From positions 992,001 through 1,056,000 of the forward strand of contig CP091033.1 of the NCBI GenBank assembly GCA_039725955.1: a stretch of DNA of 64,000 bases, in the 5' to 3' direction. This DNA is from Sinorhizobium sp. B11. GTDB taxonomy: Bacteria > Pseudomonadota > Alphaproteobacteria > Rhizobiales > Rhizobiaceae. Shown here piece after piece: positions 3,797-56,785 of the stretch. How positions within the stretch are numbered: position 1 is the first letter of the stretch; every line of letters starts with the position of its first letter. A model generated the notes under the pieces. The model had not been told where the DNA came from. It did not search any database and was given only the letters and a program-made list of their open reading frames with translations. Position numbers and translations under genes: made by a program.

Positions 3797-3889
3797 CCGG
3801 CAAACGCCGATGGCTTTACACGCCCGCCGTTCACATCATCTGATGGTGGCTCATCAGATGCTTGACAGCGTTCCGCTTTGCTGCGGGCG

Positions 3890-21430: not shown

Positions 21431-23152
21431 ATGAGCAAAACCGCGGCCGATTATATGGCCCTCACCCTTGCCGAGATGGGCGTCAAACGGATCTACGGCG
21501 TGGTCGGAGACTCCCTTAACGGTTTCAGCGACGCCTTGAGGCGCCTGGAAACCATTGCCTGGATCCATGTTCGTCATGAGGAAGGAGCAGCATTCGCTGC
21601 GGCGGCCGAGGCACACGTGACCGGTGAACTGGCTGTCTGCGCCGGGAGTTGCGGGCCGGGAAACCTCCATCTGATCAACGGCCTGTTCGATGCACAACGC
21701 AGTGGTGTTCCGGTCCTGGCCATAGCCGCGCATATACCGAGCACGGAGATCGGGATCGACTACTTCCAAGCGACACATCCAGAGACACTCTTCAAAGAAT
21801 GCGCTCACTACGTGGAACTGGTGAGCCAGGCCGACCAATTGCCGCAAGTCCTAGCACGCGCTATTAGGGTAGCTGTCGGACAAAAGGGGGTCGCAGTTGT
21901 CGTAATCCCCGGCGATGTCGCTCTGCAATCTTTATCAGCTCCGATTCCGAAGTGGTTTGCGCCTGCAGATTCGGTCATCATGCCGGCCGACGATCAGCTC
22001 GGACGCCTCGCGGACCTCCTTAATGATAGCAAGCGTGTGACGATGCTATGTGGAGCCGGTTGCAAGGGAGCCCACAGCGAGGTGGTCGAACTCGCCGGCC
22101 TCTTGCAGGCGCCCATCGTCCACGCCTTGCGCGGCAAGGAATTCGTGGAGCACGACAATCCGTTCGACGTCGGAATGACGGGTTTCCTTGGGTTCGCCTC
22201 GGGTTACTGGGCAATGAAGAATTGTGACACGCTCCTCATGGTCGGGACAGATTTTCCATATCGGCAATTCCTCCCCACAGACGTGAAGATCGCACAAGTC
22301 GACATTCGGGCGGCCGCACTCGGGAACCGTTGCAATCTCGATATTGGCGTGCTGGGATCAACCGGACCTACCCTACGGTCGTTGCTTCCGAGGATCAAAG
22401 CTAAGGTTGATTCGGCACATCTCGATGATGCGCTCTCAGACTATCGAAAAGCTCGTTCGGACCTTGACGCACTCGCGGAGAACGGACCGTCGACCAGATA
22501 CATCCATCCGCAATATGTGAACCGTCTCGCAAGCGAACTTGCTGACGACGATGCAATATTTACCTGCGACGTGGGCACGCCAGTTGCATGGGCTGCTCGC
22601 TACCTCAAGTTCAATGGGCGACGTCGTCTCGTTGGCTCATTCAATCATGGATCCATGGCGAATGGGATGTTGCACGCGATCGGCGCTCAAGCAGCGTTCC
22701 CCGGCAGGCAGGTCATCTCCATGTCCGGTGACGGAGGCTTTTCGATGATGATGGGCGAGTTCGTTACGCTCATCCAGCAGAAGCTACCCGTGAAGGTAAT
22801 CGTTCTCAACAACGGAACGTTGGGGTTCGTTGAGATGGAAATGAAGGCATCCGGCTTTCTCGACACCGGATGCGAGTTGATCAACCCCAACTTTGCGTCC
22901 ATGGCCGAAGCGATGGGCGTGAAAGGCGTCCGCGTTGAATCTCCCCATGACCTGAAAGAAGCAATGTAGGAGGTCTTGGCCCATCACGGCCCTGCCCTTC
23001 TCGATGTCGTCAGCGCTCGACAGGAACTTGTCATGCCACCCGCGACTAGCATGAAAGACGCCCACAAGTTTGGAATGTTCATGTTGCAAGCGGTGCTCGA
23101 CGGTAGAGCGGGCGAAATAATCGATCTCGCGAAGAAGAACCTGCTTCGCTAG
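21431..23152 (+). pseudogene. PoxB-type thiamine-diphosphate enzyme with one in-frame amber codon
   Basis: The frame would encode 573 residues, the usual length of pyruvate oxidase/dehydrogenase (PoxB), a ThDP- and FAD-dependent enzyme turning pyruvate into acetate and CO2. The catalytic Glu is in [20 protein letters not shown], and the ThDP motif is [12 protein letters not shown] with the following LNNG. A TAG at 22967 stops translation after residue 512 (KEAM-stop-EVLAHHGPALLDVV). The same frame then continues with a normal C terminus, including a membrane-binding-like tail, to the stop at 23152. One C-to-T change in CAG would explain it. The truncated product lacks about 60 C-terminal residues. 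Confidence 0.9.
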
Positions 23153-29204: not shown

Positions 29205-30854
29205 ATGACGATGAACTGGCAACACCAACGAGACAACCGCGATGTTCGTGTGCAAGCAGGCAGTGCGGTCGCTTCCGGCAAAATCGTGTTGGCAAACGAT
29301 GCCACGCGTTTGCTGGAAGCTGTCATTCGCCCCGGCGATCGCGTGTGCCTGGAAGGGGATAATCAAAAGCAGGCCGACCTTCTGACAAACGCCCTTCTAG
29401 CGGCTGATGTTTCAAAAGTTCATGACTTGCATATGGTGCAGTCGGGCGTCGTCCTGCCTGGCCACCTCGATTTGTTCGATCGAGGCGTCGCGAAACGGCT
29501 CGACTATGCATATTCCGGCCCTCAGTCTGCCCGTATCGCCACGATGCTGTTCGGCGGCAAGATTGAGCTTGGAGCGGTTCACACTTATCTCGAGCTGTTC
29601 GCTCGATACTTCATCGACCTCACGCCGAACGTCGCACTTATCGCCGCGGTGAGTGCGGACCGGGAAGGCAATCTGTACACCGGCCCCAACACCGAGGACA
29701 CTCCTACGGTCGTCGAGGCGACCACATTCAAGGACGGCATCGTCATCGCCCAGGTTAACGAGATCGTGGATAAGGTTCCACGCGTCGACATTCCAGGCGA
29801 CCGGGTCCACTTCGTCATCGAAGCCGACACGCCGTTCTTTGTCGAACCGCTCTTCACGCGTGATCCCGCAGCGATTACCGAGACACAAATCCTGACTGCC
29901 ATGCTCGCGATTAAGGGGATCTACGCCCCTTACGGAGTTCGAAGACTCAATCACGGCATCGGTTTCAGCACGGCGGCAATTGAACTACTTCTTCCGACAT
30001 TTGGTGAAAAGCTCGGATTGAAAGGTAAGATTGCGACCCGCTTTGCTCTGAATCCACATCCAGCGCTCATACCCGCTATCGAATCGGGTTGGGTCGAGCA
30101 GATCCACTCCTTCGGCTCGGAAGTAGGTATGGACGATTACATCCGCGCTCGCTCGGATGTTTATTTCACTGGGCCGGATGGATCCCTTCGTTCAAATCGT
30201 GCGTTCTGCCAGGTAGCTGGACTGTATGCGTGCGACATGTTCATCGGCTCTACGCTCCAGATCGATCTCGCTGGAAATTCATCTACCGTGACTACGTCCA
30301 GGATCGCAGGTTTCGGCGGAGCGCCAAACATGGGATCGGACGCCCGAGGGCGCCGCCATCCAAGCGAGCCGTGGCTCCAAGCGGGACGAGAGGCGGATCC
30401 AAACGGCCCGGCCCCGCTTCGTCGAGGAAGAAAGCTGGTAGTTCAGATCGGCGAAACCTTCGGTGAGAAAAACGTGCCGCTCTTCGTGGAGAAGCTGGAT
30501 GCCCTCGCACTCGCAGAAAAGCTCAAGCTGGAGCTGGCGCCCGTCATGATCTACGGCGACGACGTCACCCATATCGTGACGGAAGAAGGCATCGCCAATC
30601 TCTTGCTCTGCCGCGACGCCCGAGAGCGCGAGCAAGCGATCCGCGGGGTCGCCGGTTACACAGACGTGGGCCGAGGCCGAGATAAAAGAGCTGTCCAGCA
30701 GCTAAGAGAGCGGGGCGTGATCCGACGCCCTGAGGATTTGGGCATCAACCCGCTCGACGCCGATCGTAAGCTTCTTGCCGCACGGTCGATAAAGGATCTC
30801 GTTCATTGGTCGGGCGGACTTTACTCGCCCCCTTCAAAATTTCGAAACTGGTGA
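29205..30854 (+). CDS. mdcA: Malonate decarboxylase subunit alpha
   Basis: 549-residue acetyl-/malonyl-S-ACP:malonate transferase subunit. It swaps acetate on the carrier protein for malonate, feeding the decarboxylation step. The length and the opening WQHQRDNRDVRVQAGSAVAS are typical, as are RLNHGIGFSTAAIELLLPT and GGAPNMGSDARGRRHPSEPW, the glycine-rich CoA-transferase-like part. The ATG at 29205 follows CAGGAG. It is the first of seven intact mdc genes on the plus strand (A, C, D, E, G, B, F), spaced by at most 13 bases or overlapping, so they are one operon for growth on malonate. Confidence 0.95.
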   Translation: MTMNWQHQRDNRDVRVQAGSAVASGKIVLANDATRLLEAVIRPGDRVCLEGDNQKQADLLTNALLAADVSKVHDLHMVQSGVVLPGHLDLFDRGVAKRLDYAYSGPQSARIATMLFGGKIELGAVHTYLELFARYFIDLTPNVALIAAVSADREGNLYTGPNTEDTPTVVEATTFKDGIVIAQVNEIVDKVPRVDIPGDRVHFVIEADTPFFVEPLFTRDPAAITETQILTAMLAIKGIYAPYGVRRLNHGIGFSTAAIELLLPTFGEKLGLKGKIATRFALNPHPALIPAIESGWVEQIHSFGSEVGMDDYIRARSDVYFTGPDGSLRSNRAFCQVAGLYACDMFIGSTLQIDLAGNSSTVTTSRIAGFGGAPNMGSDARGRRHPSEPWLQAGREADPNGPAPLRRGRKLVVQIGETFGEKNVPLFVEKLDALALAEKLKLELAPVMIYGDDVTHIVTEEGIANLLLCRDAREREQAIRGVAGYTDVGRGRDKRAVQQLRERGVIRRPEDLGINPLDADRKLLAARSIKDLVHWSGGLYSPPSKFRNW

Positions 30855-30867
30855 GAGGCGCAGGAAA

Positions 30868-31182
30868 ATGGAGAAACTAATCTTCCATCACAAGATGTTG
30901 CAGCGGGCCGCCGGAGCCAAGGAACTTGCAATCAATGGCGTCGTGGCCTCCGGGAACCTTGAAGTCCTGAGCGAACGGGTTTTGCATGACAGCGAATGCA
31001 CCGTCGAGATCAATACGGCGGTCGATGGCTTCGGCGAGGTTTGGGCCGCGGTCGTGCAGGACTTCGTCGATCGCTACAATCCTGGTGGTCTCAGATTCTC
31101 GATCAACGACGGAGGTGCCCGCCCGGACATCGTCATGCTCCGCCTCGCTCAGGCTGTCCGGTTGATGGAGGACACTCAATGA
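30868..31182 (+). CDS. mdcC: Malonate decarboxylase acyl carrier protein (delta subunit)
   Basis: 104-residue carrier protein. The Ser in VVASGNLEVL is the attachment site for the 2'-(5''-phosphoribosyl)-3'-dephospho-CoA prosthetic group in this family. It carries acetyl and malonyl groups between MdcA and MdcDE. Its stop overlaps the start of mdcD in an ATGA. The prosthetic-group genes mdcG and mdcB are further along the same operon. Confidence 0.93.
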   Translation: MEKLIFHHKMLQRAAGAKELAINGVVASGNLEVLSERVLHDSECTVEINTAVDGFGEVWAAVVQDFVDRYNPGGLRFSINDGGARPDIVMLRLAQAVRLMEDTQ

Positions 31183-32114
31183 AAAACGTCTCGGACAAGA
31201 TCGAAAACCACCCAGATGGATCGGCAAGTTGGTATGAAGCATCTGCGCGTGAACGCATCGCTCTTTTGCTCGATGTCGACAGTTTCAAAGAGTTCATCGG
31301 GCCAGAAGTACGCGAAGTCAGCCCCCACCTGCCGATCTTCAATCTTCCCGAGGCATTTGACGACGGGATCGTAATCGGCAAGGGCACACTCGATGGATCC
31401 CCGGTCTTTGTCGCCGCTCAAGAAGGGCGGTTCATGGGCGGCGCCTTCGGCGAAGTCCACGGAGCAAAGCTAACCGGGCTCCTTCGGGCGGCCCGTGATC
31501 TAAAAGAGATACCCGTCCTGATCCTCTTCGACACCGGGGGTGTCCGCCTTCAGGAAGCAAACGCTGGCGAGCTTGCAATCGCCGAAATCATGCGAGCCGT
31601 TGTCGAAGCTCGGACCGCAGGAGTAAAGGTGCTGGGGCTAATCGGCGGCCGCGCGGGCTGCTATGGAGGCGGAGCTCTAACGGCCGGGTGCTGCTCTGGA
31701 CTGATCGTCTCGGAACAAGGCCGCATCGCGGTATCCGGTCCTGAGGTAATCGAGACGAACCGAGGCGTCGAGGAGTTCGACTCGCGAGACCGCGCGCTGG
31801 TTTGGCGGACCATGGGCGGAAAGCATCGCAAACTTATTGGCGGAGCCGAGCTTTTCGTCAACGACAGGGCGCGCGCTTTTCGAGATGCGGCCGCAAAGCT
31901 CCTCGCGACTGCAAAGCCACTTGGTCTGGAAACACTATTATCCGAACAAGATCGACTTGAGCAGAGGCTTCGAGAATTTCGCGATGCCGCAGACGCGATC
32001 GATATCTGGACCGCGATGAAGATACCAAATGCTGCGTCCGTGCCGGCTATGGCCGCAGACGAATTCGTATCCCTGGCAGACAGTATCGGAAGGAACTTCC
32101 ATGACGCTCGCTGA
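31179..32114 (+). CDS. mdcD: Malonate decarboxylase subunit beta
   Basis: 311-residue carboxyltransferase-type subunit that, with MdcE, releases CO2 from malonyl-S-ACP to regenerate acetyl-S-ACP. The crotonase-like fold is seen in DLKEIPVLILFDTGGVRLQE and LGLIGGRAGCYGGGALTAG, with oxyanion glycines. It also has SGPEVIETNRGVEEFDSRDR. The true start is ATG 31179, overlapping mdcC; the frame is open further upstream. It overlaps mdcE by 14 bases, which suggests coupled translation of the two subunits. Confidence 0.94.
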   Translation: MKNVSDKIENHPDGSASWYEASARERIALLLDVDSFKEFIGPEVREVSPHLPIFNLPEAFDDGIVIGKGTLDGSPVFVAAQEGRFMGGAFGEVHGAKLTGLLRAARDLKEIPVLILFDTGGVRLQEANAGELAIAEIMRAVVEARTAGVKVLGLIGGRAGCYGGGALTAGCCSGLIVSEQGRIAVSGPEVIETNRGVEEFDSRDRALVWRTMGGKHRKLIGGAELFVNDRARAFRDAAAKLLATAKPLGLETLLSEQDRLEQRLREFRDAADAIDIWTAMKIPNAASVPAMAADEFVSLADSIGRNFHDAR

Positions 32115-32820
32115 TCTTCTTGCATCACTGTTTCCGAACGGCCACGAAATCGCAAATGAGGGCGGATTGCTGCTTGGGTCTGCGCCGCTTGGTCGAAACG
32201 GAAAGGCGCTTGTCATTGGCGTCTCCGGGGGAATAGCACTCGGCGTCGATGAGGCAATTCGCCTTTCCGGCCGCGTGCTTTCTTCTCTCAGCTCTGACAC
32301 CGGGCCGATCATCGTTATCGTCGACAGCGATAGTCAACGAATGAGCAAGCGCGACGAACTGCTTGGACTTAGTGAGTTTCTTTCACACTTGGCAAAATGC
32401 CTTCTTTACGCGGACATGAACGGTCGTCCGACCATCGGTATCCTCTACGGTCATACCGCCGCGGGCGCGTTCCTGGCGACCGCGCTGGCGACAAGAGTGC
32501 TGGTCGGGTTGCCAGGAGCGGAGCCAGCGGTTATGGATTTGCCGTCGATGTCGAAAGTCACCAAGCTTTCCATCGACGTCCTTCAAGAGAAGGCCAAATC
32601 AACGCCGGTGTTTGCACCGGGACTTGAAAACCTCGCCCAAACTGGTGCCGTCCATCTTCTATGGAACGCGAACAAAGCCCTTGCGGACCAGCTAGATGAA
32701 TTGCTGCGCAACCTACCGGATGCCGGAGACAGACGCGGCGATCTTGGGTACGCCCGTAAAGGACGACTAAAAGCAGGCCCCGTAGCGGAGCGCGTCCATG
32801 AACTCGCGGTCGCGCGGTAG
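32101..32820 (+). CDS. mdcE: Malonate decarboxylase subunit gamma
   Basis: 239-residue partner of MdcD. It shows the second half of the carboxyltransferase pair: ALVIGVSGGIALGVDEAIRL, then IVIVDSDSQRMSKRDELLGL, and YGHTAAGAFLATALATRVLV with PGAEPAVMDLPSMSKVT. It starts inside mdcD and its own 3' end overlaps mdcG by 23 bases, so the operon is tightly packed here. Confidence 0.93.
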   Translation: MTLADLLASLFPNGHEIANEGGLLLGSAPLGRNGKALVIGVSGGIALGVDEAIRLSGRVLSSLSSDTGPIIVIVDSDSQRMSKRDELLGLSEFLSHLAKCLLYADMNGRPTIGILYGHTAAGAFLATALATRVLVGLPGAEPAVMDLPSMSKVTKLSIDVLQEKAKSTPVFAPGLENLAQTGAVHLLWNANKALADQLDELLRNLPDAGDRRGDLGYARKGRLKAGPVAERVHELAVAR

Positions 32821-33448
32821 CGCGCAGCCGCTGAGGCGGCACGATCTTGTCGGTATCGCTCCATTCTCTTCCAATTCCGACCCGATCCTAGCAGCGTGGA
32901 CTGCGAATGGTTGGCCACTGATCAGCCGCAGGCCAACCCTCCACGACACTGAAGGAGTCACAGTCGGCCTTCCCTTGCCCCCCTCTCAAGGGAAACGACG
33001 GCACTCGTTTGTTGTCCGACCGGATCAGATCATCTCGATCCGCGCGCCGCTCCCTTTGGGCGACGCCGTCCACAAGACACCATCATCTTGGCTGCCGACG
33101 ATCAACCACATCGAAAAGCTGGCTGGCGAGAATGGCTACGGCATCCGTGTATTTGGAAGCCTAGCCTGGAGCGCGCTCACGGGACTGGACTACCTGACTG
33201 GGAATTTGGATCTCAATCTCCTTCTGTACGCCAACGCTGACACGAACCTTGATCGCATCTTGGGACACCTTGCTCAGATACAGTTCGTTTCACCGATGCG
33301 GTTGGACGGGGAGTTCGTACGGGGTGACGGAGCGGCCGCCAACTTGTGGGAGTTTCGCAGCACTGCTCCCGATATCCTGGTCAAGTCGCTCGAAGGGGCA
33401 GCTTTTGTCCATCGCAACAAGTTCCTAGCTGGAGATTTCGCCATATGA
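32798..33448 (+). CDS. mdcG: Phosphoribosyl-dephospho-CoA transferase (holo-ACP synthase)
   Basis: 216-residue nucleotidyltransferase that attaches the phosphoribosyl-dephospho-CoA group to MdcC. The start LRRHDLVGIAPFSS is typical. The catalytic region reads YGIRVFGSLAWSALTGLDYL followed by DLNLLL, giving a G-S and paired Asp pattern as in MdcG/CitX-type transferases. It overlaps mdcE upstream and mdcB downstream (ATGA). Confidence 0.92.
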   Translation: MNSRSRGSAQPLRRHDLVGIAPFSSNSDPILAAWTANGWPLISRRPTLHDTEGVTVGLPLPPSQGKRRHSFVVRPDQIISIRAPLPLGDAVHKTPSSWLPTINHIEKLAGENGYGIRVFGSLAWSALTGLDYLTGNLDLNLLLYANADTNLDRILGHLAQIQFVSPMRLDGEFVRGDGAAANLWEFRSTAPDILVKSLEGAAFVHRNKFLAGDFAI

Positions 33449-34335
33449 AAAACGTCCTCTCAACGTTGCTCGCGCCACGGCAACAGCCCTCTGCTGCCAG
33501 GGCACGCCCTTGGGTGGACATCGATGCCATCTCCGTCTGCGCCCGGAAGAGCCTGATCCTCGAACTAGAGACGTGGCCGAAACCAGGTTTGGTGAGCCAC
33601 ATAGATCGTGGCAGCCATCACGACATGAACTCTGAGACGTTTCGAGAAAGTGCGGACGCCATAGAACCATATCTTGCGGCGTTGGTTCGAGAAGGCGCCG
33701 CAGGCAGCAAGATGGGGCGCCTGAGAGCCGTTGGTATCGACGCTGAGCGAGCGATGCTATCCGCTACCAACGGCATCAACACTCATCGAGGAGCAATTTT
33801 CGGCGTCGGTCTGCTTTGCGCCGCGGCCGGCGCGCGCGCGAACAGCAGAGTAGCAGACAATCTCACGCTGGGATCCATTGTTTCGCTACTCTGGGGGGAT
33901 GACATAATTAACGGACCCCTGCCGTTGAATAGTCACGGAGGCAGAGCGCGGAGAAAGTATGGAGCGGGTGGGGCTCGCATCGAGGCTGCTCGAGGCTTTC
34001 CGACGGTCTACGAGGTTGGTCTCCCAACGCTCCGGAAGTATCGAGCCAACTTTCCCGACGACATGGAAGCAGTTCGGGTTCAAACGTGTTTCGCGCTCAT
34101 CGCAGCGGTCGAAGACACCAACCTTCTGCACAGAGGCGGCCAGCGAGGTCTTCGCCACGCAAGGCTTGCCGCTGATGCGTGGCTTCAAGATGGTGGGATC
34201 GCTAATCCGCGTTGGCGGGAGAGCGCCCACTTAGTCCATCAAGAGTTTATCGGCCACTGGCTTAGCCCGGGAGGATCTGCGGATCTCTTGGCGATGACCC
34301 TTTTTGTAGACGCTCAGGAAAGGCCTTTTATCTGA
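33445..34335 (+). CDS. mdcB: Triphosphoribosyl-dephospho-CoA synthase
   Basis: 296-residue CitG-type enzyme making the prosthetic-group precursor from dephospho-CoA and ATP. Signature stretches: LILELETWPKPGLVSHIDRG with SHHDMN, TNGINTHRGAIFGVGLLCAA, and EDTNLLHRGGQRGLRHAR. It starts at ATG 33445 overlapping mdcG by four bases, though the frame is open from 33346. It shares one base (TGATG) with mdcF. Confidence 0.93.
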   Translation: MKNVLSTLLAPRQQPSAARARPWVDIDAISVCARKSLILELETWPKPGLVSHIDRGSHHDMNSETFRESADAIEPYLAALVREGAAGSKMGRLRAVGIDAERAMLSATNGINTHRGAIFGVGLLCAAAGARANSRVADNLTLGSIVSLLWGDDIINGPLPLNSHGGRARRKYGAGGARIEAARGFPTVYEVGLPTLRKYRANFPDDMEAVRVQTCFALIAAVEDTNLLHRGGQRGLRHARLAADAWLQDGGIANPRWRESAHLVHQEFIGHWLSPGGSADLLAMTLFVDAQERPFI

Positions 34336-35285
34336 TGATTGCGACAATTCTACTCGCACTGACGCCGATATTCTTTGTCATGACCCTGGGTTACGGAGCC
34401 GGACGATGGAGCATCGTTGACAATCATCACGTCGACGGTCTCAACGTACTGGTCATGAACTTCGCGCTGCCTGCTTCCCTTTTTGCCGCAACCGCTTCGG
34501 CTTCCCGATCGGAGATGTATGCCCAAGCTCCGTTGTTCGTGATTTTAAGCGGCATGATGCTCTTCGTTTTCTTGGGGTGGTACTTCTTTCAAGTCAGGTT
34601 CCGAAAAATAGGAAAGCCGGATTCATCTCTCCAGGCGCTTACGATCGCGTTTCCTAATCTCGCTGGTGTCGGGTTGCCAATATTGGCAGACGTAATCGGC
34701 CCTGATGGAACCATACCCCTTGCGGTGGCGCTCGCGGCCGGCTCCATCGTCATCAGCCCTCTGGCGTTGGTTCTAGTGGAACTGAATGTAAAAAAAGACC
34801 GCGTTGATCCGTCTGCAGGCAAATCGAAAGTGTTCAACGCGCTTCGGCACGCGCTGACCAAGCCAGTGGTTCTGGCGCCAGCCTTGGGTATCGTGTTCTC
34901 CCTGAGCGGACTTCCAACGGGAAAAGTGTTGGACGCAAGTCTCCTGTTGATCGGGCATGCTGCTCCGGGCGTCGCGCTATTCCTAACCGGCGTCGTGCTT
35001 TCGGCCCAAGCCTTCCGTTTGAACTGGAAGGTCGTGAACGCGACTATTGTCGCTGATCTGGTTCGTCCCCTGCTGACTGCAGCGATTGTGCTGGCTCTAG
35101 GTGTCGCGCCAGAGACCGCCAAGGTAGCGATCCTGCTCGCGGCCGTCCCTTCGGGCTTCTTCGGCATCCTGTTCGCGGTCAACTACCGGCTGGACTCGGC
35201 CACCACCGGGTCGATGGTGATCGCCAGCACCATTTCGAGCGTCGTGACTCTAGCGGTAGCCATCGCTTTACTCTATCCGCACTGA
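34335..35285 (+). CDS. mdcF: AEC-family malonate transporter
   Basis: 316-residue membrane protein with about ten helices of the auxin-efflux-carrier (AEC) fold: GLNVLVMNFALPASLFAATA, then AFPNLAGVGLPILADVIGPD and AAVPSGFFGILFAVNYRLDS. MdcF-type carriers import malonate. Its place at the end of the mdc operon, translationally coupled to mdcB, supports that role, though AEC substrate cannot be read from sequence alone. Confidence 0.88.
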   Translation: MIATILLALTPIFFVMTLGYGAGRWSIVDNHHVDGLNVLVMNFALPASLFAATASASRSEMYAQAPLFVILSGMMLFVFLGWYFFQVRFRKIGKPDSSLQALTIAFPNLAGVGLPILADVIGPDGTIPLAVALAAGSIVISPLALVLVELNVKKDRVDPSAGKSKVFNALRHALTKPVVLAPALGIVFSLSGLPTGKVLDASLLLIGHAAPGVALFLTGVVLSAQAFRLNWKVVNATIVADLVRPLLTAAIVLALGVAPETAKVAILLAAVPSGFFGILFAVNYRLDSATTGSMVIASTISSVVTLAVAIALLYPH

Positions 35286-35294
35286 GCTTCTGCT

Positions 35295-35960
35295 ATGACC
35301 CGGGCAATAGTGTGCTCTGGTCAGGGTCGACAGCATTCCGAAATGTTCGGCTTGTCCGGCGACGCCTCCGAAGCCGAACCCCTCTGGGAGCACGGGCGGA
35401 TTTTGCTTGACGGCCTGGATCCCCGCCTCAATGTGCGCGAGGTCTGGTGGAGACACTCCACTCCAACCGGTTTGGGCAGATCATTTGCGCGATTTAGCGG
35501 CATTAGGTAGCAAAACCCGGTTTTTGCTACCTAATGCCGCGATTTAGACCCTTTCGGCAACCGCGGCGCTAAGAACGTCGCTTCCTGCCCAAGTAGTCCT
35601 CGCTGGCTCCAGCGTCGGGGAACTAGCGACCTAGGGCGCTTCAGAAGTGCTTGACCGTATCGTAGCATGGGAACTGGCGGCTCATAGAGCCGCAATGATG
35701 GATGTGCATACTTCGCCTGGAGACGGTTTGCTGTCTATCCGCGGACTGCAACGAGGAATGATCGATAGGCAGTGCGAGTGTCATCGCTGCCTTGGCAATT
35801 GTGAACCCCGATGATTGTTCATCCTCGCGGCACGCGGCAGACGCTTCAAGCGGTGGTAGCAGGGCCGAGCAGCTCCAACCGATCAGAATGACACTCCTGC
35901 CTGTGGTGGTGGCATCGCATACCAGGCTGCCTCGACCGGGAAGTCTGGACGTGAGGTTAA
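35295..35960 (+). pseudogene. mdcH: Malonyl-CoA:ACP transacylase (MdcH), decayed
   Basis: A FabD-like gene follows mdcF by nine bases. Fragments in order are AIVCSGQGRQHSEMFGLSGD, TLHSNRFGQIICAI, then TLSATAALRTSLPAQVVLAG with SVGELAT around the serine, ELAAHRAAMMD, LLSIRGLQRGMID, IVNPDDC and VASHTRLP. They are spread over frames by at least three shifts. At the expected active site GxSxG the read is GSSVGE, and TAG replaces expected Gln and Trp codons. A 50-bp insertion (35498-35547) breaks it. MdcH loads malonyl onto the carrier to prime the cycle, so the operon lacks its own priming enzyme. Confidence 0.88.
35488..35547. repeat. Tiny palindromic insertion with 10-bp target duplication
   Basis: A 19-bp perfect inverted repeat (35497-35515 and 35522-35540, six-base loop) is flanked by the direct repeat CGCGATTTAG at 35488-35497 and 35538-35547. 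Deleting one repeat plus the 40 bases between them rejoins the two parts of mdcH in the same reading frame. That is strong evidence of an insertion event. No second copy was seen in the window. Confidence 0.8.
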
Positions 35961-35961
35961 C

Positions 35962-36170
35962 CGGCACTGGCCGGAAGAGGTGAAAGCGCAAATCGTTTCG
36001 GAGAGTTTCGGCTAGGAGCGCTGGTGAATGAAGTCGCAGAGCGACATGGCCTGACGCCGAACCATCTGTCCACTTGGCGAACGATGGCGCGGCAGGGCGA
36101 GCTGGTTCTGCCTGCGCCTGAGGAGGCGGTAGAATTTGCAGCGGCAACCGTCGAAACACCTCTTTCATAA
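35962..36170 (+). pseudogene. IS66-family TnpA (OrfA) remnant
   Basis: Two shifted frames give HWPEEVKAQIVSES and then RLGALVNEVAERHGLTPNHL, STWRTMARQGELVLPAPEE, ending TVETPLS-stop. This is the TnpA/OrfA protein of IS66 elements. It follows directly on the last recognisable mdcH residues, so an IS66 insertion or deletion removed the end of mdcH. No tnpB or tnpC follows. Confidence 0.82.
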
Positions 36171-36415
36171 CCGCCGGTCAGCCTGGCCGCACTACCCGCT
36201 GATGTGGAATGTTCCTTCGTCAACGTAGAGCACATCTTCAAGTAGGCTGATCCTCGGGCACATGAACTTTACCTGTTCCGTATAGTCTTGCAGCCAAGGC
36301 GGATTTGTAGCAACGTTGTCGCGCAGGATCTGCCCGGGCTTACCGTTCCTGCGTCAAGTGTTCCCAGAACACGCCCCTCACGGGGGCCCTACGGGCCACA
36401 TCAAGCTGTCACTTG
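36171..36415. other. Intergenic, possible coding remnant on minus strand
   Basis: The reverse strand reads PWLQDYTEQVKFMCPRISLL followed by EDVLYVDEGTFHISG and a stop, which looks protein-like, but there is no start and I do not recognise it. It lies downstream of the polymerase-like gene and could be the tail of a lost neighbour. Confidence 0.3.
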
Positions 36416-38191
36416 TCATTGCCCTGAGGCAGCAGGGCGATGACTTTCAATCTCCTCCCGTAACTGAGCGAACGCTTCCGCGCGCGCTAAAACCGATTGA
36501 GCACGATTATCTTCGAGGGCGGCCAGCACGGTTTCGAAGGCCGTGCTGTCGCCGACCTCCAGGAGTCTTTGATATGTGACGCCCGCGTCGCCCGCTACAA
36601 TTGATCGGGTGACACTCATCGTCTTTTGCATGCGGACGCCGATCTTAATCGGGATATGCAGATCGCCGATTTTTCTGCACTCAACACTGATGTTGTAATC
36701 CTTGAATGGTCTTCCGCCAGTCAAGATCCCACGGTTCCGAAATTTCTCTACTTGTTGGGAGTACAACCAATAGCGTCCGGGTTCCAGCCATAGGCCGTGG
36801 TCAGTGACTGCTTCGATCTTGTACGATCCCATTTCATCCGATGCATTTGATTCGAGCCATTTCAGCGCGTTGTCGATATCTTTCCTTGGAAGGGAAATGT
36901 GTATCGAGTCGATGTTGCTGTAGCAGATCAAGGCATCTGGAAACCGTGAGCAGATCGCCTCCATCATCTCCAGCACCATCACCCGTCCTCTTGCAACGAT
37001 GCGCTGGTTGAAGAAGAAGCACGTAGATTGGTCAAACAGATTGGGGCTGGTAACGACCGTCCCGGCGGCGTCGGTGAAACTGGATATTCGACCGCGGTGC
37101 TCCAGCCAGCTATCGATGGAAGCTTCCGGCTCGTCCGAGGCTGGAACAATGCCGTATATCGATCTCAGAAACTCAAAGGCTCGGTTACGGCTGCTGAACG
37201 AGGATCGTAACGACGACGGTCGGCTCGCGCACGACGACAGCAAGGTCGATAGGAATTTCTCGCGATCGGCCAGCGTCTTGTTGCCCTGGGCGCGAAAGTT
37301 CTTCCTTCGGGCGAAGGAGCGAATGGCCTCCTTTGCCAAGGGATGTCTGATTTCGTGATCGGACACGACCGCATGAGTGACGTGGATGGTGTCGAAATGG
37401 CGGCGGTAGTATTCGAGCTCAAACTCGTTGAGATCGACCTCGACGGCTTCGTCCAGCGATGCGCCGAGATATCGGCCGGAGCAAAAGCTGCGGAACGGGT
37501 TATGCCGCCGGATGAAGTCGGTGTTGGGATGGCTGAGAAGGCAACGGTAGAGGCCCGTCTTCAGTGTATCGCCAAGCGCCAGCGGCCGGTTCCACGCGAT
37601 TATCTCCAGTGAGGACGGCTTAGGGAACGAGTGCTGCATGCAGGCGGAGTACATGGCGTTGAAGTCGATCGCCAATACGGCCCGGTCATCACGCTTTTCC
37701 TCAAGGACGAAAACATCTTGGATAGGCAAGTGCCAAGCCGAATAAAAACAGACATCGAGATTGTTCTTCCGACGGACGGCATTGCAGATCGTATTCCACT
37801 TATCGTCGCAGAATTCGGCGGCAGAGATGAAATGGCGCCGATAGCGTCGGACTACCGCCCCTACCCTGTCAAAGCTGATCTTTGAATTGCTAATGAATGG
37901 ATGGGGCGGAAGCCACGGGTAGATCGCCTCGAGCACAATCGGCGGACGACGGCCCGGATTGGCCAGCGCAATAAGATCCGCCTCCCTCTTCGTCAGTACG
38001 GCCGGGAGGGTATTGGGATCGGCCCGATAGTTCTCGATTGGATATGTTCCTCCGACATCTGTTATCGATGCGCCGTCGGAGGCCAGCAGGAAAGGCTCCC
38101 GTCTCGTGCGACCCTTCTGTTTGCGGAGGAGTGACGTTCGGATTTCGCTCGGAAGTTCGGGCGACGCGTGGAAGCGAAAACTGCGGCTCAT
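36416..38191 (-). CDS. Family-B DNA polymerase-like protein (protein-primed type)
   Basis: 591 residues with palm motifs of family-B polymerases. Motif A is AVLAIDFNAMYSACMQ (Asp-176), followed by FPKP. Motif B is reduced to LRSIYG (344-347): SxYG is kept, but the usual Lys and Asn of KxxxNSxYG read Phe-339 or neighbour and Arg-343. An intervening helix reads FFFNQRIVARGRVMVLEMM. Motif C is ICYSNIDSIHISL, where phi29-like enzymes have YCDTDSIHL, so the first Asp is Asn-426 and Asp-428 is kept. A KxY-like EPGRYWLYSQ then FRNRGI follows. The first 170 residues show no clear proofreading-exonuclease motif. It starts four bases after the 316-aa gene upstream. Role unknown: replication, defence or a dead paralogue are all possible. 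Confidence 0.75.
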   Translation of the reverse strand: MSRSFRFHASPELPSEIRTSLLRKQKGRTRREPFLLASDGASITDVGGTYPIENYRADPNTLPAVLTKREADLIALANPGRRPPIVLEAIYPWLPPHPFISNSKISFDRVGAVVRRYRRHFISAAEFCDDKWNTICNAVRRKNNLDVCFYSAWHLPIQDVFVLEEKRDDRAVLAIDFNAMYSACMQHSFPKPSSLEIIAWNRPLALGDTLKTGLYRCLLSHPNTDFIRRHNPFRSFCSGRYLGASLDEAVEVDLNEFELEYYRRHFDTIHVTHAVVSDHEIRHPLAKEAIRSFARRKNFRAQGNKTLADREKFLSTLLSSCASRPSSLRSSFSSRNRAFEFLRSIYGIVPASDEPEASIDSWLEHRGRISSFTDAAGTVVTSPNLFDQSTCFFFNQRIVARGRVMVLEMMEAICSRFPDALICYSNIDSIHISLPRKDIDNALKWLESNASDEMGSYKIEAVTDHGLWLEPGRYWLYSQQVEKFRNRGILTGGRPFKDYNISVECRKIGDLHIPIKIGVRMQKTMSVTRSIVAGDAGVTYQRLLEVGDSTAFETVLAALEDNRAQSVLARAEAFAQLREEIESHRPAASGQ

Positions 38192-38195
38192 CAGA

Positions 38196-39146
38196 TTAGC
38201 CTTTGTTTCGGGCTTCGCGCCTCATCAGGAGGATGCCGCAGCGAGCGAGGGCTAGTTCGTTGAGGAGAATTGATCGATCTGGAACGTCCGTCGTAATTGA
38301 TTCATGGCGCAATGCGCGATCGATCGTGTGTCGGACAGAAAATGGAAAGAGGTATGTTAGCGGGTGAAGGTGCCGCAGGGGCCAGTTCTTGATATGCCCC
38401 TTGCCGGGTTGTGAGCGGCCTGTATCCTGCTCGGGAAGGTGCGACCGGGCTGTCTCATAAAGCTTTTCGAGAGACCGGAGTTCTTCCAGCGATCCCACGC
38501 CTATCTCAACGATCGAATAGTGAAGGCGCGCGAGCGATAGGATCGCGCGCGTGCTATCCCTGCTAAGGGCCGCGGCTCCCGGATTTCCAGGAGAGTCTGC
38601 GAGCGTATGGATGGCGGTCCGCAGGATACCAGTCCTGTCATAGGCGACTAAGAAAGGTTTGCTTCCCGCCTCTTTCAGCACTGAGGCCAACCATACCCTT
38701 TGCGCGGTATTCACCTTGACGCCTTCGCCACTTAGGTACTGTTCGAGCAACGCCCGAAGCCCGTGGGTGAGCGTGGCCGTGATGGCAGACGAGTAGGGAA
38801 GGTCTTCCCACTTGGAGTAGCGACTGATGGCATAGGCTTTCCCCATAGAGAGGAGCGACTTGAGAAACGGCCTTTCGGTGTCCGGCCACTGATGTTCTCC
38901 AGAGAGCGCCGTGTCCGCCTCGTGAAGCGCCCAGCGCCATTCTGCCGGCGAGACGCCTCTAGCGTTGAGGATACGCGCGCCTATCGATTTAAGCGAAAGA
39001 AGCTTTACGTCTCCGATCGCTTCGAGTTCCTCGTTGAGGAGGCGTTCTTCCTCCTCCCGTTCATTGGCGGCTTGTATTGCGCTCGGGCTGACGTAACCAT
39101 CAACGTCGCTCACCCAAAAACTGTCACTGTCAAAACTTTGACTCAT
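38196..39146 (-). CDS. Unknown protein paired with the polymerase-like gene
   Basis: 316-residue, mostly helical soluble protein without signal peptide or membrane segment. An acidic N terminus (MSQSFDSDSFWVSDVDGYVS) is followed by a Glu-rich coiled stretch (NEREEEERLLNEELEAIGD). No family is recognised. It is co-directional with the polymerase-like gene and separated from it by four bases, so they are translated from one message. In protein-primed systems the terminal protein gene precedes the polymerase gene, so this is a candidate partner, but that is inference from position only. A remote helical toroid fold cannot be excluded. Confidence 0.75.
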   Translation of the reverse strand: MSQSFDSDSFWVSDVDGYVSPSAIQAANEREEEERLLNEELEAIGDVKLLSLKSIGARILNARGVSPAEWRWALHEADTALSGEHQWPDTERPFLKSLLSMGKAYAISRYSKWEDLPYSSAITATLTHGLRALLEQYLSGEGVKVNTAQRVWLASVLKEAGSKPFLVAYDRTGILRTAIHTLADSPGNPGAAALSRDSTRAILSLARLHYSIVEIGVGSLEELRSLEKLYETARSHLPEQDTGRSQPGKGHIKNWPLRHLHPLTYLFPFSVRHTIDRALRHESITTDVPDRSILLNELALARCGILLMRREARNKG

Positions 39147-39558
39147 GCCTGAAATGTCCGCCCCATCTGCCGTCGGATTACTCTATGGCTTCAATGCGAT
39201 GGCAACAAGTGAGCGCAGGACGCAAATCCGACTTGACCACATGCCAGACCTTGCGCTTGCGACGGGCTTGCCGCGCCTGCCTGTCGTTGCGCCGAACGGG
39301 TCGCTCGGACTTTATTGCTCATTTGCAACTCAAGCCATCGAGGATCGGCGGATCAACTTGTCCTTCGGCGGGGTTTTCCAAGTAGCTCTTTGTAAACCGC
39401 CATGGGTGGGCTTCGTCTGAAAATGCCGCCGACAGTGGACGCCATCCCAAGGTGCCGCCAAACCGTACTGGGACTCTGGCGCGCGCGATTGCTATTGGCA
39501 GGAAAAGAGTCAGGGGAAACGGCTTAGAGGGAAACCGCGTCCATTCTCGGTGGAGGTG
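39147..39558. other. Upstream region of the polymerase-like cassette, no gene seen
   Basis: About 410 bases. A reverse-strand stretch reads RKVWHVVKSDLRPALTCCHR then a stop, which may be a relic of a coding sequence, but it has no start and no recognisable family. The cassette promoter should be here. Confidence 0.35.
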
Positions 39559-39956
39559 TCACAGTTTTCGAATGTAACCGTAGGCATTTCGGGAATCGAA
39601 CATGGTTGGCCAAGTGCTCCCGGACGGCAAGTCCACATTTGAAAACATAGCTGTCCCATCTTCGTCGCTAATCTGAACGGTCGATGCCTCGACGATTTGC
39701 CGGTTAGGTGTATTCATAGGGAATGTCCGTTGAACCTCCCAATGGCTACCAGTGAGATTGCATCGGGTGTAGCCAATCGGCGAGAAGATGTGAGCGATAA
39801 TCGTGCTGCCACTTCTTCGTCACGGTGCATGAACTGCACCGCTCCCCCCTTCGATGAGGTAAACATGTTCTTCGCCGGGACAGCCATCGCGAAATGGATT
39901 CCTGGTGTCGGCGTCCAAAGCTCCCATCTGTTCACGATGATTTTAGTCGTGCCCAC
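39559..39956 (-). pseudogene. Small unknown protein, apparently frameshifted
   Basis: Frame one gives WELWTPTPGIHFAMAVPAKN and FMHRDEEVAA. The next frame then gives IIAHIFSPIGYTRCNLTGSH, WEVQRTFPMNTPNRQIVEAS, TVQISDEDGTAMFSNVDLPS and a stop at 39559. Read together they make one smooth protein of about 130 residues. Alternatively these are two small genes joined by an ATGA overlap at 39714-39717. No family recognised. Confidence 0.35.
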
Positions 39957-40479
39957 TATGTCCGATACGATTTCCTCCCGTCCCCGGCATCCGTCTCTTG
40001 AGCGGAGTCGACAGAGCGATGGATGTTAATCTGGATGTTGGCGTGAAAAAACTCTCGGACTGGATTTGCACCACGGTACGGTGGGCCTCGTGCCTGCAAA
40101 GCTGCGTCGAGTCGGGAGCGAGATGCTTCGTTGAATTGAGGCCGGACGATGCGTTGAGCCGTATGGCTAGAGAGGCGTTTCCTGACGTTGAGAGCCGTAG
40201 CTTTGAGCGACTTTCAAATCCCTTGTGGGCGCGCGAGCATCGATCGCCGCACGCGCACATTAGCTGCGCTTGTCGAGAGCCGTCTTCGCCACCATCCCTA
40301 GAAGCTATAGCGACCAACCGAACGTATAGCACAGCGCTATCCTCAGTGTGATTTCGCGGAACGTTACCGAGACGTATTTTGTTCATGTCGCCTTGGACGG
40401 CGGACAACTGAAGTTTTCTCAAAGAAGCAACGAGAAGGCCTCAAATCACGGCCCTCTCTCACCCGTTGAAGGAACAATC
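39957..40479. other. Intergenic region, no gene supported
   Basis: About 520 bases between the small broken gene and the secreted protein gene. Overlapping open frames on both strands show no domain. AAGGAA just before 40480 is the ribosome binding site of the next gene. Confidence 0.4.
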
Positions 40480-40836
40480 ATGAAACACGCAATCAGCTTT
40501 GCCGCGCTCGCAGTCGTAGCTTCGGTCGCCTTTACCACAACGAGCCGCGCCGACAGCCTCACCATGAACGACGGCCCGCAGATCGAGAAGACACTTCGGA
40601 CCTTCGACAAGGCCTTCGATGTCAAGTATCTGAACGACTATCAGAACCAGAAGACGCAGCCCGATGCGGAAGACACCGCAATTCCTCGCACGAAGGAAGG
40701 CGTCCAGAACATTCGTGCGTCCATTTCCGCGAACAAGGGCCTGACTGAAAAGCTGCAGGCGAAGGGCATCGACATCGACAACGTGGTGAACGCTCAGCAG
40801 GCTGCCGACGGTTCCATGACGTTCTTCATCAAGTAG
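40480..40836 (+). CDS. Small periplasmic protein of unknown function
   Basis: 118 residues. A clear signal peptide (MKHAISFAALAVVASVAFTT, cleavage near SRA-DS) precedes a charged helical mature part with KTLRTFDKAFDVKYLNDYQN and ending DGSMTFFIK. ATG 40480 has AAGGAA upstream and begins the signal sequence; the frame is open back to 40348 but without leader character. It is monocistronic, followed at once by a strong terminator. No family is recognised. Confidence 0.75.
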   Translation: MKHAISFAALAVVASVAFTTTSRADSLTMNDGPQIEKTLRTFDKAFDVKYLNDYQNQKTQPDAEDTAIPRTKEGVQNIRASISANKGLTEKLQAKGIDIDNVVNAQQAADGSMTFFIK

Positions 40837-40842
40837 GTGTCG

Positions 40843-40885
40843 GACTGGTCCGACCTGATCCTCCCCAGGTCGGACCAGTCTCTTT
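40843..40885 (+). terminator. Rho-independent terminator
   Basis: A 14-bp perfect stem (GACTGGTCCGACCT / AGGTCGGACCAGTC) with a 10-base loop, followed by TCTTTT, seven bases after the secreted-protein stop codon. This is the clearest intrinsic terminator in the window. Confidence 0.85.
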
Positions 40886-42872: not shown

Positions 42873-43250
42873 ATGACCTATCTCGTGTATCTGATTGCCC
42901 TTATACGCCCAATGATTGTGGTTGTCACTTTATTTGACATCGGTTTTGCTTTTTTGCGCGCATGCGTGAACACAATGTTTCCTGTCCGTTTGGCTGCCAA
43001 GTTATACGGTCGTCAGCTGAGGCGCAGTTATTGCGGTCACCACCGCGTCACCTTGTTCTTCGACGCGCATTCTGCGCCAGGCTGGTATCCAGGTTTTATG
43101 CAGAGCGCTTGCCTGACAGCAGCCAGCCATTGGCTCCTAGGATCACCATTGACTGGTAAGCTCTTCCCGCGCGGTTCCGATCGAATATTTTGTGGTCCCA
43201 CGCCACGAATTCCCAGAGTTCCGTGGCCAAGCTCCGCGACCATGCAATGA
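42873..43250 (+). CDS. Possible small membrane protein
   Basis: 125-residue frame with a good ribosome binding site (AGGAG shortly before ATG 42873) and a hydrophobic N terminus (TYLVYLIALIRPMIVVVTLF). The rest is rich in Arg, Pro and Ser and does not look like a folded domain. It ends 11 bases before the regulator start. It may be a leader or a chance frame. Confidence 0.3.
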   Translation: MTYLVYLIALIRPMIVVVTLFDIGFAFLRACVNTMFPVRLAAKLYGRQLRRSYCGHHRVTLFFDAHSAPGWYPGFMQSACLTAASHWLLGSPLTGKLFPRGSDRIFCGPTPRIPRVPWPSSATMQ

Positions 43251-43261
43251 GGAGTACTCAA

Positions 43262-44923
43262 ATGGCAACGGTTCGGACTTTGAATACCATGGCCGCGCGT
43301 TTTAATGATGGTCCTGCCACTAGTGCTGAGACGGTGCAACCCGCTCGGCCGCATGAGAGCCTTGTTGATTCCGATGACGTCTTGTTGTTCGGCCCGTTCC
43401 GCATGTCGGTGGGAGGCCGGTGGCTCCGCAGGGGAAACGCCGATTTGGCCTTGAGCAGCCGGGCGTTTGACATCCTGATCGCGCTCGTCAGTAGAGCTGG
43501 CACGATTGTAGGTGCGCGAGAGCTTTTCGAGATTGTCTGGCCTGACGTCGTGGTGGAGGCTTCAAACCTTCGAGTCCATATCGTTGCCCTTAGGAAGGTT
43601 TTAGGCGACGGTGTAGACGGCGTTCGATTTGTTATTAACGTACCGGGGCGTGGCTACATGTTTGCCTGCCCCGTTCGTAGAGAATCCCAAAGTGTCACTA
43701 GCGCGAATCCGCGGCCGCAACAAAGGCTTCCGACGGTTCCCCAGCTTTTGTATGGTCGAAGCGAGACGCTCGAGAAACTACCCGCGATGATCCTGTCCAA
43801 AAGATTTGTCTCCGTGATTGGTCCCGCCGGAGTTGGAAAGACCACGGTCTCGTTGGCGGCGGCCGACGCACTGAGTTCTCAGTTCGGAAGTGACGGCGTT
43901 TGCTTCCTCGACCTATCACTCCATAGTGATCCGACGTTCGCTCTCGCTGCTTTGTTATCCATTGCCCCGTGCCCGTTCGATCTTTCCAACACCCAGAGTG
44001 CAATCACAAGGTGTCTGTCGGACAAGCGAGTTCTTCTGTTTCTTGATAACTGCGAGCATGTCATCGATTCTCTCGCGCCGCTTGTCGCTCGGATATTCAG
44101 GGAAGCGCCATCCGTGCACTTGTTGGTCACTAGTCGCGAAGTACTTCGAGCGGAAGGTGAACACGTCGAGTTTCTTTCCCCGCTGAGTCATGCAACCTCC
44201 TCCACGGAATACCGGAGGCCATCTCCCGCGGTTGAGCTATTCATGGAACGTGCTGCAGCGAGTGGATGGATTTCATCGGTTGACGAAACTGAGACCGCAT
44301 CCGCGATGGAGATCTGCCGCCGACTTGATGGTCTTCCCATCGCAATTGAACTTGTCGCTAGTCACGTAAGCACTCTTGGGATGCTTGGCTTAACCGAAAT
44401 AATCGAGCAGGATGAATTTTTGACACTTAGGGGGAGGCGTAGTGCCTGTTCGCGGCATCAAACCCTCGAAGCTCTTCTCGACTGGAGCTTCGACCTACTT
44501 TCTGACGAGGAACAGCGGTTTCTATTGAAGTTGTCCAAGTTCGCGGGTGCCTTTACCCTCGAGGCTGTACGGAGCTTGTACGCGCAGCCCGAAAGTGAAG
44601 GGGTGCGAACTGCGAGGCTGCTAGCAAGCTTAGCCGACAAATCGCTTCTTCAGGTTTCTCGCTCGTCCACAACCTCGTACTACAAGCTTCTGCATATCTT
44701 GAGGGTCTATTGCGCCCGGAGGGCTTCGAAGCCCCACGATTGTCGCTTGCGGATCGTTAAGAATACAGCAGAACGCGAAGTAGGATCACCGGATCATCTC
44801 AACGCCATCGCGACTGTCCCGTTCGGGCAGGCGAAGCCGAACGATATTTGCAGCGAGCTTAGCGCCTTGCAACCTATCACAGGCCAAAATCAATTCGGCG
44901 CATTATCGGACCAACAGGCGTGA
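43262..44923 (+). CDS. Winged-helix/NB-ARC-type ATPase regulator, C-terminally truncated
   Basis: 553 residues. Residues 40-138 are an OmpR-type DNA-binding wing (FGPFRMSVGGRWL, SRAFDILIALVSRAGTIVGA, INVPGRGYMFACPV). An AAA/NB-ARC-like ATPase follows with Walker A GPAGVGKTT (187-195), Walker B KRVLLFLDNCEHV and VTSREVLRAEGE. Family members are usually 900 or more residues with a TPR tail. Here the similarity fades after LLHILRVYCARRASKPHD and stops soon afterwards. The start is ATG 43262 with GAGGAG upstream. It converges on fetB with a 21-base overlap. Whether the short form works is unknown. Confidence 0.82.
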   Translation: MATVRTLNTMAARFNDGPATSAETVQPARPHESLVDSDDVLLFGPFRMSVGGRWLRRGNADLALSSRAFDILIALVSRAGTIVGARELFEIVWPDVVVEASNLRVHIVALRKVLGDGVDGVRFVINVPGRGYMFACPVRRESQSVTSANPRPQQRLPTVPQLLYGRSETLEKLPAMILSKRFVSVIGPAGVGKTTVSLAAADALSSQFGSDGVCFLDLSLHSDPTFALAALLSIAPCPFDLSNTQSAITRCLSDKRVLLFLDNCEHVIDSLAPLVARIFREAPSVHLLVTSREVLRAEGEHVEFLSPLSHATSSTEYRRPSPAVELFMERAAASGWISSVDETETASAMEICRRLDGLPIAIELVASHVSTLGMLGLTEIIEQDEFLTLRGRRSACSRHQTLEALLDWSFDLLSDEEQRFLLKLSKFAGAFTLEAVRSLYAQPESEGVRTARLLASLADKSLLQVSRSSTTSYYKLLHILRVYCARRASKPHDCRLRIVKNTAEREVGSPDHLNAIATVPFGQAKPNDICSELSALQPITGQNQFGALSDQQA

Positions 44924-55480: not shown

Positions 55481-56785
55481 CTAGTCGGCATTGTCGGGAT
55501 CGCCGGCGTGGAAGCCGGCCGCCGATCCATCGATCACCCGGAAGAGCCTGTCGGTGAATTGCCGCATCGCCTTGCGGCACTGCGGTATGAAGCGGTCCTG
55601 GTTGTAGTCCTGTCGCCTCCGATGACCGATGATGTAGTCCGCTATTTCTGGCGGAACGCCCAATTGCGACAGCGCCGTGCGGACCACCCGCCGCAGGTCG
55701 TGCAGAACCCATCCGATCATCGACGTTCCGGAACAGAGTTTGCGGTATTCCTCTTCCACCCGCGCGCGGAAGTCGTCCATGTCGTACCCGGTGTACGGGG
55801 TCTGGCCGTTCGTCACGCTGAAGACGAAGTCCCCCCATCCCTGCGGCTGCCCGGACCGCAGCTCCTCAAGCAGTGCAACGGCCTCGTCGGTCAGCACGAC
55901 ATACAGGTCGAGGAGTTCGTCTCCGTGCTTCACGCGCTTTTCGGGGATTGTCCAGAGCTTCTTCGCGATGTCGATTTCCGACCAGCGGATGTGCTCGGCC
56001 TCCTGCCTCCGCCGCCCCCCCGCCAGCACGACCAGCCTGTAGAACGGACCGTCCGGATACGGCATCGCGGCCGCCGCACTCCAATATGCCCGGAGTTCCT
56101 GGGAGTCGAGCTTCCGGGATCGCTTTCCCCGTGACAGTTCCATTGATGCCGCGGTGATGTCGGCGGTAGGATTGCCCGCCAGGCCGTACCCTTCGTACCT
56201 GGCCGGACCGTTCGCCCAGACGAAAAACCACCGTATCAATTCGAGGGCCTGCAGCGCCCGACCGGGAACACCTCTGCCGCGGATGTTTTCGATCAGGACG
56301 CCGATGTCGGCCCTGGTGACATCCGCGATCGCTTTGTCGATCCAAGCGTTGCGTGCCGGATCGAGAAATTCCGCGCGCAACGCGGCGATGTCCGGCAACA
56401 TGTGGCGGTTGCGCTTCTTGTTTGGGAGCCAGGCGATGTAGTCCTCCATCGCCGACCGGAAAGTCCTCCGCTCGTCGACGACCGCCTCCCGCGCACGCCG
56501 CTGAGCCTCCTGCCGCGGGTCCAGTCCGCGGTCGATCATCGCGCTCCATTCGGCCGCCACCTCGCGGGCGCGCTCCAGCGTCGTTTTAGGAAACGTCCCG
56601 ATCTTGAGGCGGGTCGGGTCTCTTTCTCCGGGACACCGGACCAACAAAAGGAAAACCTTCTTCCGTCGGCCGACCCGCACAATCAGGTTTGGCGTTTTTC
56701 CGTCGCGCCACTCGTGGCGCGTTTCGCCCTTTTCGAGGCGCAATTTCTCGATCCGTTTGGTGTGTAAGGCGCGTGTTCTGGTCAT
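55481..56785 (-). CDS. Tyrosine-family integrase (DUF4102 type)
   Basis: 434-residue site-specific recombinase. The N-terminal DUF4102 arm-binding domain (TPNLIVRVGRRKKVFLLLVR, KIGFPKTTLERARE-like) is followed by a core-binding helix bundle and the catalytic domain with Arg in GGRRRQEAEHIRW, HDLRRVVRTAL, His in YIIGHRR, and the nucleophile Tyr in DYNQDRFIPQCRKAM. All five key residues are present, so it looks active. P4-type integrases of this kind insert elements at tRNA or ssrA genes; none is seen nearby. It ends 24 bases from the broken hypothetical gene. Confidence 0.9.
   Translation of the reverse strand: MTRTRALHTKRIEKLRLEKGETRHEWRDGKTPNLIVRVGRRKKVFLLLVRCPGERDPTRLKIGTFPKTTLERAREVAAEWSAMIDRGLDPRQEAQRRAREAVVDERRTFRSAMEDYIAWLPNKKRNRHMLPDIAALRAEFLDPARNAWIDKAIADVTRADIGVLIENIRGRGVPGRALQALELIRWFFVWANGPARYEGYGLAGNPTADITAASMELSRGKRSRKLDSQELRAYWSAAAAMPYPDGPFYRLVVLAGGRRRQEAEHIRWSEIDIAKKLWTIPEKRVKHGDELLDLYVVLTDEAVALLEELRSGQPQGWGDFVFSVTNGQTPYTGYDMDDFRARVEEEYRKLCSGTSMIGWVLHDLRRVVRTALSQLGVPPEIADYIIGHRRRQDYNQDRFIPQCRKAMRQFTDRLFRVIDGSAAGFHAGDPDNAD

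Follow-up and report, generated by a model that had tools for sequence, protein, structure and literature searches.

A stretch of 64,000 nucleotides from Sinorhizobium sp. B11 (assembly GCA_039725955.1, contig CP091033.1, positions 992,001 to 1,056,000; 'the window' below, its first base being position 1) carries a three-part module made of a gene for a protein with a predicted family-B DNA polymerase (PolB) fold, a gene for a partner predicted to be all-helical and a predicted non-coding RNA (ncRNA) that reads convergently toward them. Because the trio is kept in 12 of 12 compared loci and lies near anti-phage genes in 6 of the 11 others, it may well be an immune system that has gone unrecognised. 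The reading that we favour, while granting it a little less than an even chance, is of an anti-phage defence whose polymerase would make DNA while held by the ncRNA or with the ncRNA as its template.

The gene pair and its RNA unit

The protein-coding part of the module comprises:

38196..39146, minus strand: partner gene, a 316-aa open reading frame (ORF); predicted all-helical, model confidence (pLDDT) 90.1, with 49 relatives
36416..38191, minus strand: PolB-like gene, 591 aa, phi29-polymerase-like predicted fold
37649..37666, minus strand: motif A, D176-F-N-A-M-Y181, with its Asp and a putative steric-gate Tyr
37256..37264, minus strand: R310-E-K312, motif B candidate, in the second predicted finger helix (305-318)
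36905..36916, minus strand: motif C, N426-I-D428-S429, Asn replacing the first Asp of the usual DTD

An earlier note on this DNA had described both ORFs, on the minus strand and four bases apart, and their coordinates are confirmed, as are the strings LAIDFNAMYS (motif A), CYSNIDSIH (motif C) and GRYWLY in the larger protein. That these strings are not there by chance follows from the invariance of D176, N178, M180, Y181, N426, D428 and S429, each found in 79 of 79 aligned relatives. SIYG (344-347), which had been put forward as motif B, is probably something else: the fingers look like helices 286-301 and 305-318, the latter carrying E311 and K312 (79/79 each) and R310 (77/79), and G347, itself invariant, stands where a later helix (335-346) ends.

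Comparison of the predicted fold with the PDB favours the right-hand palm that the note had proposed. The closest fold is phi29 DNA polymerase, at 10% identity in the fold alignment, and DNA polymerases of family B, some of them so named, fill all 50 rows listed in each of two comparisons, with no reverse transcriptase fold among those rows. Profile alignment by hhalign places motif A on the phi29 DVNSLYP, so that the DxxSLYP of phi29-type PolBs appears here as D176-x-N-x-M-Y181; YxDTDS with both Asp is not found. The alignment continues beyond motif A into what we presume to be the TPR1 region, and in the model extra elements (327-383) lie where a TPR2 would be expected. The N-terminal part also aligns to phi29 polymerase in the model (29 on 4), and the residue two after D39, if its correspondence to ExoI is right, is S, T, H, Y or C in 60 of the 79 relatives; this exonuclease-like domain, having no evident catalytic Glu, is presumably dead. 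The polymerase itself would be active, to judge by four invariant residues: the Asp and Tyr of motif A, the second Asp of motif C and the Lys of the fingers.

The partner finds no family match in Pfam, NCBIfam, PHROGs or PADLOC and its model no clear fold match in the PDB. Four of its tyrosines (Y105, Y110, Y169 and Y230) are invariant in all 50 sequences, itself and the 49 relatives.

The interval marked in the earlier note, 36416..39146, takes in both genes and ends where the polymerase gene ends, missing a structured element at 36323-36444. It came to light when the flanks were read by eye: each of the 12 loci has it, as a conserved unit right at the 3' end of the polymerase gene. Its parts in the window are:

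36288..36316, plus strand: promoter-like boxes for the ncRNA, TTGCAG (36288-36293), 17 nt, CAACGT (36311-36316); the -10 box is weak
36323..36444, plus strand: predicted ncRNA, convergent to the gene pair and overlapping the polymerase stop codon and last codons; hairpins H5, H4, H3, H2 and H1 from 5' to 3'
36323..36352, plus strand: H5 hairpin at the RNA 5' end, GCAGGA/UCCUGC stem and inner CGG/CCG stem
36330..36334, plus strand: pseudoknot strand 1, CUGCC, inner 5' segment of H5, pairing with 36428-36432
36358..36372, plus strand: H4 hairpin, GUGUUC/GAACAC, nearly invariant
36415..36444, plus strand: H1 hairpin; its 12-bp stem keeps its pairing although the sequence varies
36428..36432, plus strand: pseudoknot strand 2, GGCAG, in the H1 loop

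Thirteen units of the 12 loci went into a covariance model, which scores 104-122 bits on them by construction (the window copy, one of the 13, scores 114.9 bits at 36321-36447); the two held-out copies, L007b and L012a, give 110.9 and 46.9 bits, L007a and L007b being near copies of each other. Run over whole genomes or records the model recovers the polymerase locus in 12 of 12, its only other match being a weak one (17.3 bits) in the L011 record; by pattern the Sinorhizobium genome holds a single copy. Rfam has no match to the unit, either in window positions 35000-40000 and L012 positions 21500-22500 at E<=5 or in L002-L012 at the gathering threshold.

The strand was judged from pair counts on 14 units (L012a omitted), the opposite strand, the pseudoknot and the promoter weights all having been chosen after the sequences were inspected. 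Counted on the gene strand, 29 pairs give 62 double-change cells against 17.2 in shuffles; on the opposite strand 36 pairs, with 94.2% of cells paired, give 73 against 22.9, with double changes in 17 pairs and none of 500 shuffles as high on any of five measures, while slid versions of the same pairing leave 39.7-48.9% of cells paired. In H1 12 of the 13 aligned pairs show double changes. Since the non-standard cells on the gene strand are A.C in 16 cases and G.U in 8, it is the opposite strand that is pointed to. There the GGCAG/CUGCC pseudoknot pairs in 70 of 70 cells and 14 of 14 units, four of the cells being G.U and a single compensatory change occurring in L011, as against 66 of 70 cells on the gene strand. 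Among six single sequences compared with shuffles four fold clearly better (z -3.1 to -4.6), and the window copy has a z of -2.7. A dedicated structured RNA, of the kind that marks retrons and defence-associated reverse transcriptases (DRTs), is predicted here by a unit that is present in 12 of 12 loci and whose pairing covaries. Between H2 and H1 a moderately conserved segment, roughly CACAUGAnnnUGG in L002-L012 and unpaired in the consensus, was noticed by eye as a candidate template or binding site.

Next to the unit and opposite the genes, 15 copies were searched with a two-box, sigma-70-like pattern. The score is 98.9, shuffles giving 82.7 +- 2.9 (0 of 600 as high); at 19 of 19 other offsets it is lower (at most 87.5), and in 11 of the 15 copies the -10 box falls 6-7 nt ahead of the unit's first base. 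With the -10 box alone 6 of 2000 shuffles score as high. The gene-strand side gives 77.5 against 79.6, though its mostly coding flank makes this a biased control. Because promoter-like boxes stand at a preferred place on the strand opposite the genes, the unit is likely, as far as sequence can tell, a convergent ncRNA gene running from about 36323 through H1 to 36444, with a tentative 3' end; at least 5 Ts fall within the first 10 bases past H1 in 5 of 14 copies. L007 has two copies and L012 three, tandem at 3735-4040 and 21748-22227 respectively with a spacing of 167-184 bp. Those that are intact each come with promoter-like boxes, and L008 has a decayed second copy (11915-12031, 20.3 bits). 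Since the distal L012 copies score well and the one overlapping the polymerase gene is decayed, the unit most likely acts in trans.

Occurrence and defence context

The PolB-like gene is rare. Of 7998 candidate proteins scored, 216, the query among them, belong to the family at E<=0.01, the named carriers including Rhizobium, Aeromonas, Myxococcus, Methylorubrum, Gluconobacter, Sphingobium and Plesiomonas; a separate profile search, which admits proteins 0.55-1.75 times the query length, yields 220 at E<=0.1, with 120 of them listed. Besides its own genome none of 397 genomes of the phylum and none of 296 of the family has it, and a pattern-based scan of one genome per species in 84,980 species found 8 loci. 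The 12 compared loci (the window's and L002-L012) were picked by the polymerase alone, and all 12 have gene pair and RNA unit together. The adjacency of the two genes that the earlier note had expected in homologues holds throughout, the partner being interrupted by an insertion at a single locus. Divergences of partner and polymerase correlate (r 0.83, 0 of 5000 as high).

Genomic contexts differ at every locus. Defence genes lie within ~10 kb of six: type I restriction-modification near L003, BREX near L004, HmaA near L006, a dCTPase-like gene and PDC-M30A at L008, PD-Lambda-5_A and HEPN/RES at L009 and Ssp genes at L012. Phage genes or ones like those of gene transfer agents occur at L010 and L011, L002 has a weak mad2 match and L007 nothing that can be named. 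With the cut-off at E<=1e-60 PADLOC has matches for at least 11 of the 87 flank proteins (HsdR of L003 having been put into the set by hand), one of these matches being Cas12-like and probably TnpB. The controls, 123 proteins of nine 20-kb regions picked at random and not matched for island content (a tenth, of 5 kb, was dropped), have at most 4. The flank proteins drew 125 families, 25 of them shown, and the controls 4, in 8 family-protein matches; since a single protein often accounts for several of the 125 through overlapping models, it was the proteins with a nameable match that were counted.

Known systems and rival explanations

How might such a module work? Partner, polymerase and RNA would form one complex. 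The ribonucleoprotein would rest in uninfected cells, and infection would release DNA synthesis, primed perhaps by a protein side chain of polymerase or partner, with the ncRNA as template or scaffold, whereupon the DNA product or nucleotide depletion may stop cell or phage, as in retrons and DRTs. More doubtful than the defence role, and on present showing improbable, is the specific claim that a family-B DNA polymerase was recruited into ncRNA-directed, protein-primed DNA-synthesis immunity as a convergent analogue of retrons and DRTs, having an RNA family and a partner protein of its own. If true, a second, unrelated polymerase fold has been drawn into the same job, and a natural RNA-directed PolB may exist. 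With protein pair and RNA family now defined, the module can be cloned and tested.

Retrons combine a polymerase, an ncRNA and a partner. The module shares that composition but has no reverse transcriptase, and its unit is downstream, reading convergently. DRT10 (UG17) consists of an ncRNA, a SLATT protein and a reverse transcriptase and occurs in defence islands (PMC12632851); the layout of polymerase, small partner and ncRNA in such islands is common to both, whereas the DRT10 polymerase is a reverse transcriptase and that of the module family B by predicted fold. The DRT9 ncRNA is scaffold and template for poly-dA synthesis, probably protein-primed (PMC12483538), and by analogy may be a model for the RNA here, though DRT9 has the reverse transcriptase fold that the module's polymerase does not. 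Because of this difference of fold the module is not a member of the DRT families. The ncRNA-linked, DNA-synthesising immune systems found in literature searched by title and abstract opening, with subscription papers mostly outside, use reverse transcriptases, and no family-B polymerase with an ncRNA in defence appeared there.

Among PolBs, phi29 DNA polymerase belongs to the PF03175 class, in contrast to a protein with no Pfam match, a motif-C Asn and no evident exonuclease catalytic Glu; the module's partner is unlike the phi29 terminal protein, and the module has a linked RNA unit. The piPolBs (see also PMC7385651 and PMC9710591 for pipolins) are, like the protein here, bacterial and without the first motif-C Asp, though the one compared is 1109 aa long as against 591. 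Integrases at L005, L006, L008 and L011 and a tyrosine recombinase at L012 may be a pipolin-like feature. In one section of a PolB survey six clusters are given, none described there with a NIDS motif (PMC7544198).

Several results weigh against the defence module as we read it. The profile search that the earlier note had proposed gave no PolB hit in Pfam, since HalX alone is listed, at E 0.064, nor is there a PolB family match in NCBIfam, PHROGs or PADLOC; hhalign with one piPolB gave E 0.35, outside the motifs and not meaningful. The Asn at the first motif-C Asp in 79 of 79 relatives could mean altered or lost catalysis. Within the ncRNA no template segment was identified, the L010 RNA folds no better than shuffles (z -0.65), and a strict promoter scan finds nothing at the window copy, where the boxes are weak. 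The PADLOC contrast shrinks at E<=1e-20, where matches number at least 13 among the 87 flank proteins and at most 8 among the 123 controls (those of the controls being of DndA/SspA, mad3 and RmuC-like kinds), and in the window itself the scanned neighbours, where PADLOC was not run, are malonate decarboxylase genes, a transporter and regulators. Some copies are broken (the polymerase frames of L008 and L009, the partner of L006), and such interruptions fit accessory genes under turnover.

Antitoxins of type III toxin-antitoxin systems are short repeats, and the best placed of the rivals, though still unlikely, would have the ncRNA silence a toxic polymerase-partner complex in that manner until infection destroys the RNA and untemplated DNA synthesis is set free. 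A pseudoknotted RNA, tandem in L007 and L012, would suit this, as would the defence context and the untemplated, protein-primed DNA made by abortive infection reverse transcriptases (PMC12632851), but neither protein matches an RNase by family or fold and the 122-nt multi-hairpin unit is unlike short antitoxin repeats. From the earlier note the PolB fold, as a prediction, and the pairing with the partner gene have stood; its idea of a terminal protein survives in a rival of low probability, a protein-primed replication cassette whose polymerase would copy a small element, linear or integrated. It draws on the phi29-type predicted fold, on the partner gene lying just upstream as the terminal protein gene does in phi29-like phage records and on the invariant partner tyrosines. 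However, hhalign finds no similarity between partner and phi29 terminal protein (whose absence from the fold lists does not exclude it), no clear PDB fold emerges, no two contexts agree, and the pair travels with the RNA unit, often beside defence genes. No more probable is a catalytically dead PolB serving as sensor or DNA-binding scaffold, to which the motif-C Asn and the exonuclease-like domain without evident catalytic Glu lend themselves; D176, Y181, K312 and D428 are all kept in 79 of 79, and piPolBs without the first motif-C Asp are highly active (PMC7544198).

For the unit alone there are two more readings, both improbable. It might act at the DNA level, the folded single strand giving the polymerase an origin, a terminus or a recombination site, and the scarcity of G.U pairs on either strand, the location at the gene end and the tandem copies would allow for that; the promoter-like boxes are nevertheless positioned on one strand, and the pseudoknot is complete only when G.U pairs are counted on the ncRNA strand. 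Least probable of all is that the unit is just a transcription terminator or an antisense regulator of polymerase mRNA. Overlap with the stop codon and convergent reading speak for this, but past H5 on the gene strand there is no U-tract, nor any terminator there by scan, and L007b, L012b and L012c lie beyond the polymerase gene, the overlapping L012 copy being the decayed one.

The empty site and neighbouring genes

The module, taken up again here as the favoured three-part unit, has an empty site in a same-genus genome (G1368), which is collinear with 34400-35934 and 39962-40882 and has 40 bp between:

35935..39961, 4.03 kb: segment missing in the same-genus genome; it contains the module, with a repeated fragment on the left edge

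Because this segment is absent from a collinear genome, the module and a dispersed repeat were evidently acquired, or else lost, in one piece. The fragment (35933-36180) recurs in several same-genus genomes and looks by eye like a broken remnant of an IS66-type OrfA. Just upstream of the L008 module lies a dispersed repeat of ~300 bp (8487-8796) with matches in many same-genus genomes, and in L006 (6773-8812) the partner gene is split by an inserted ORF that by eye resembles a transposase, with polymerase ORF and RNA unit left intact.

The module's direct neighbours in the window are genes of malonate decarboxylase (alpha subunit, MdcG, CitG-like) and, after them, a membrane transporter (29205-35285). 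On its other side are regulators; 43190-44923 encodes a protein of 577 aa whose C-terminal domain is that of a regulator and which weakly matches STAND/NB-ARC NTPases, and a tyrosine integrase gene lies ~16 kb from the module, at 55481-56785.
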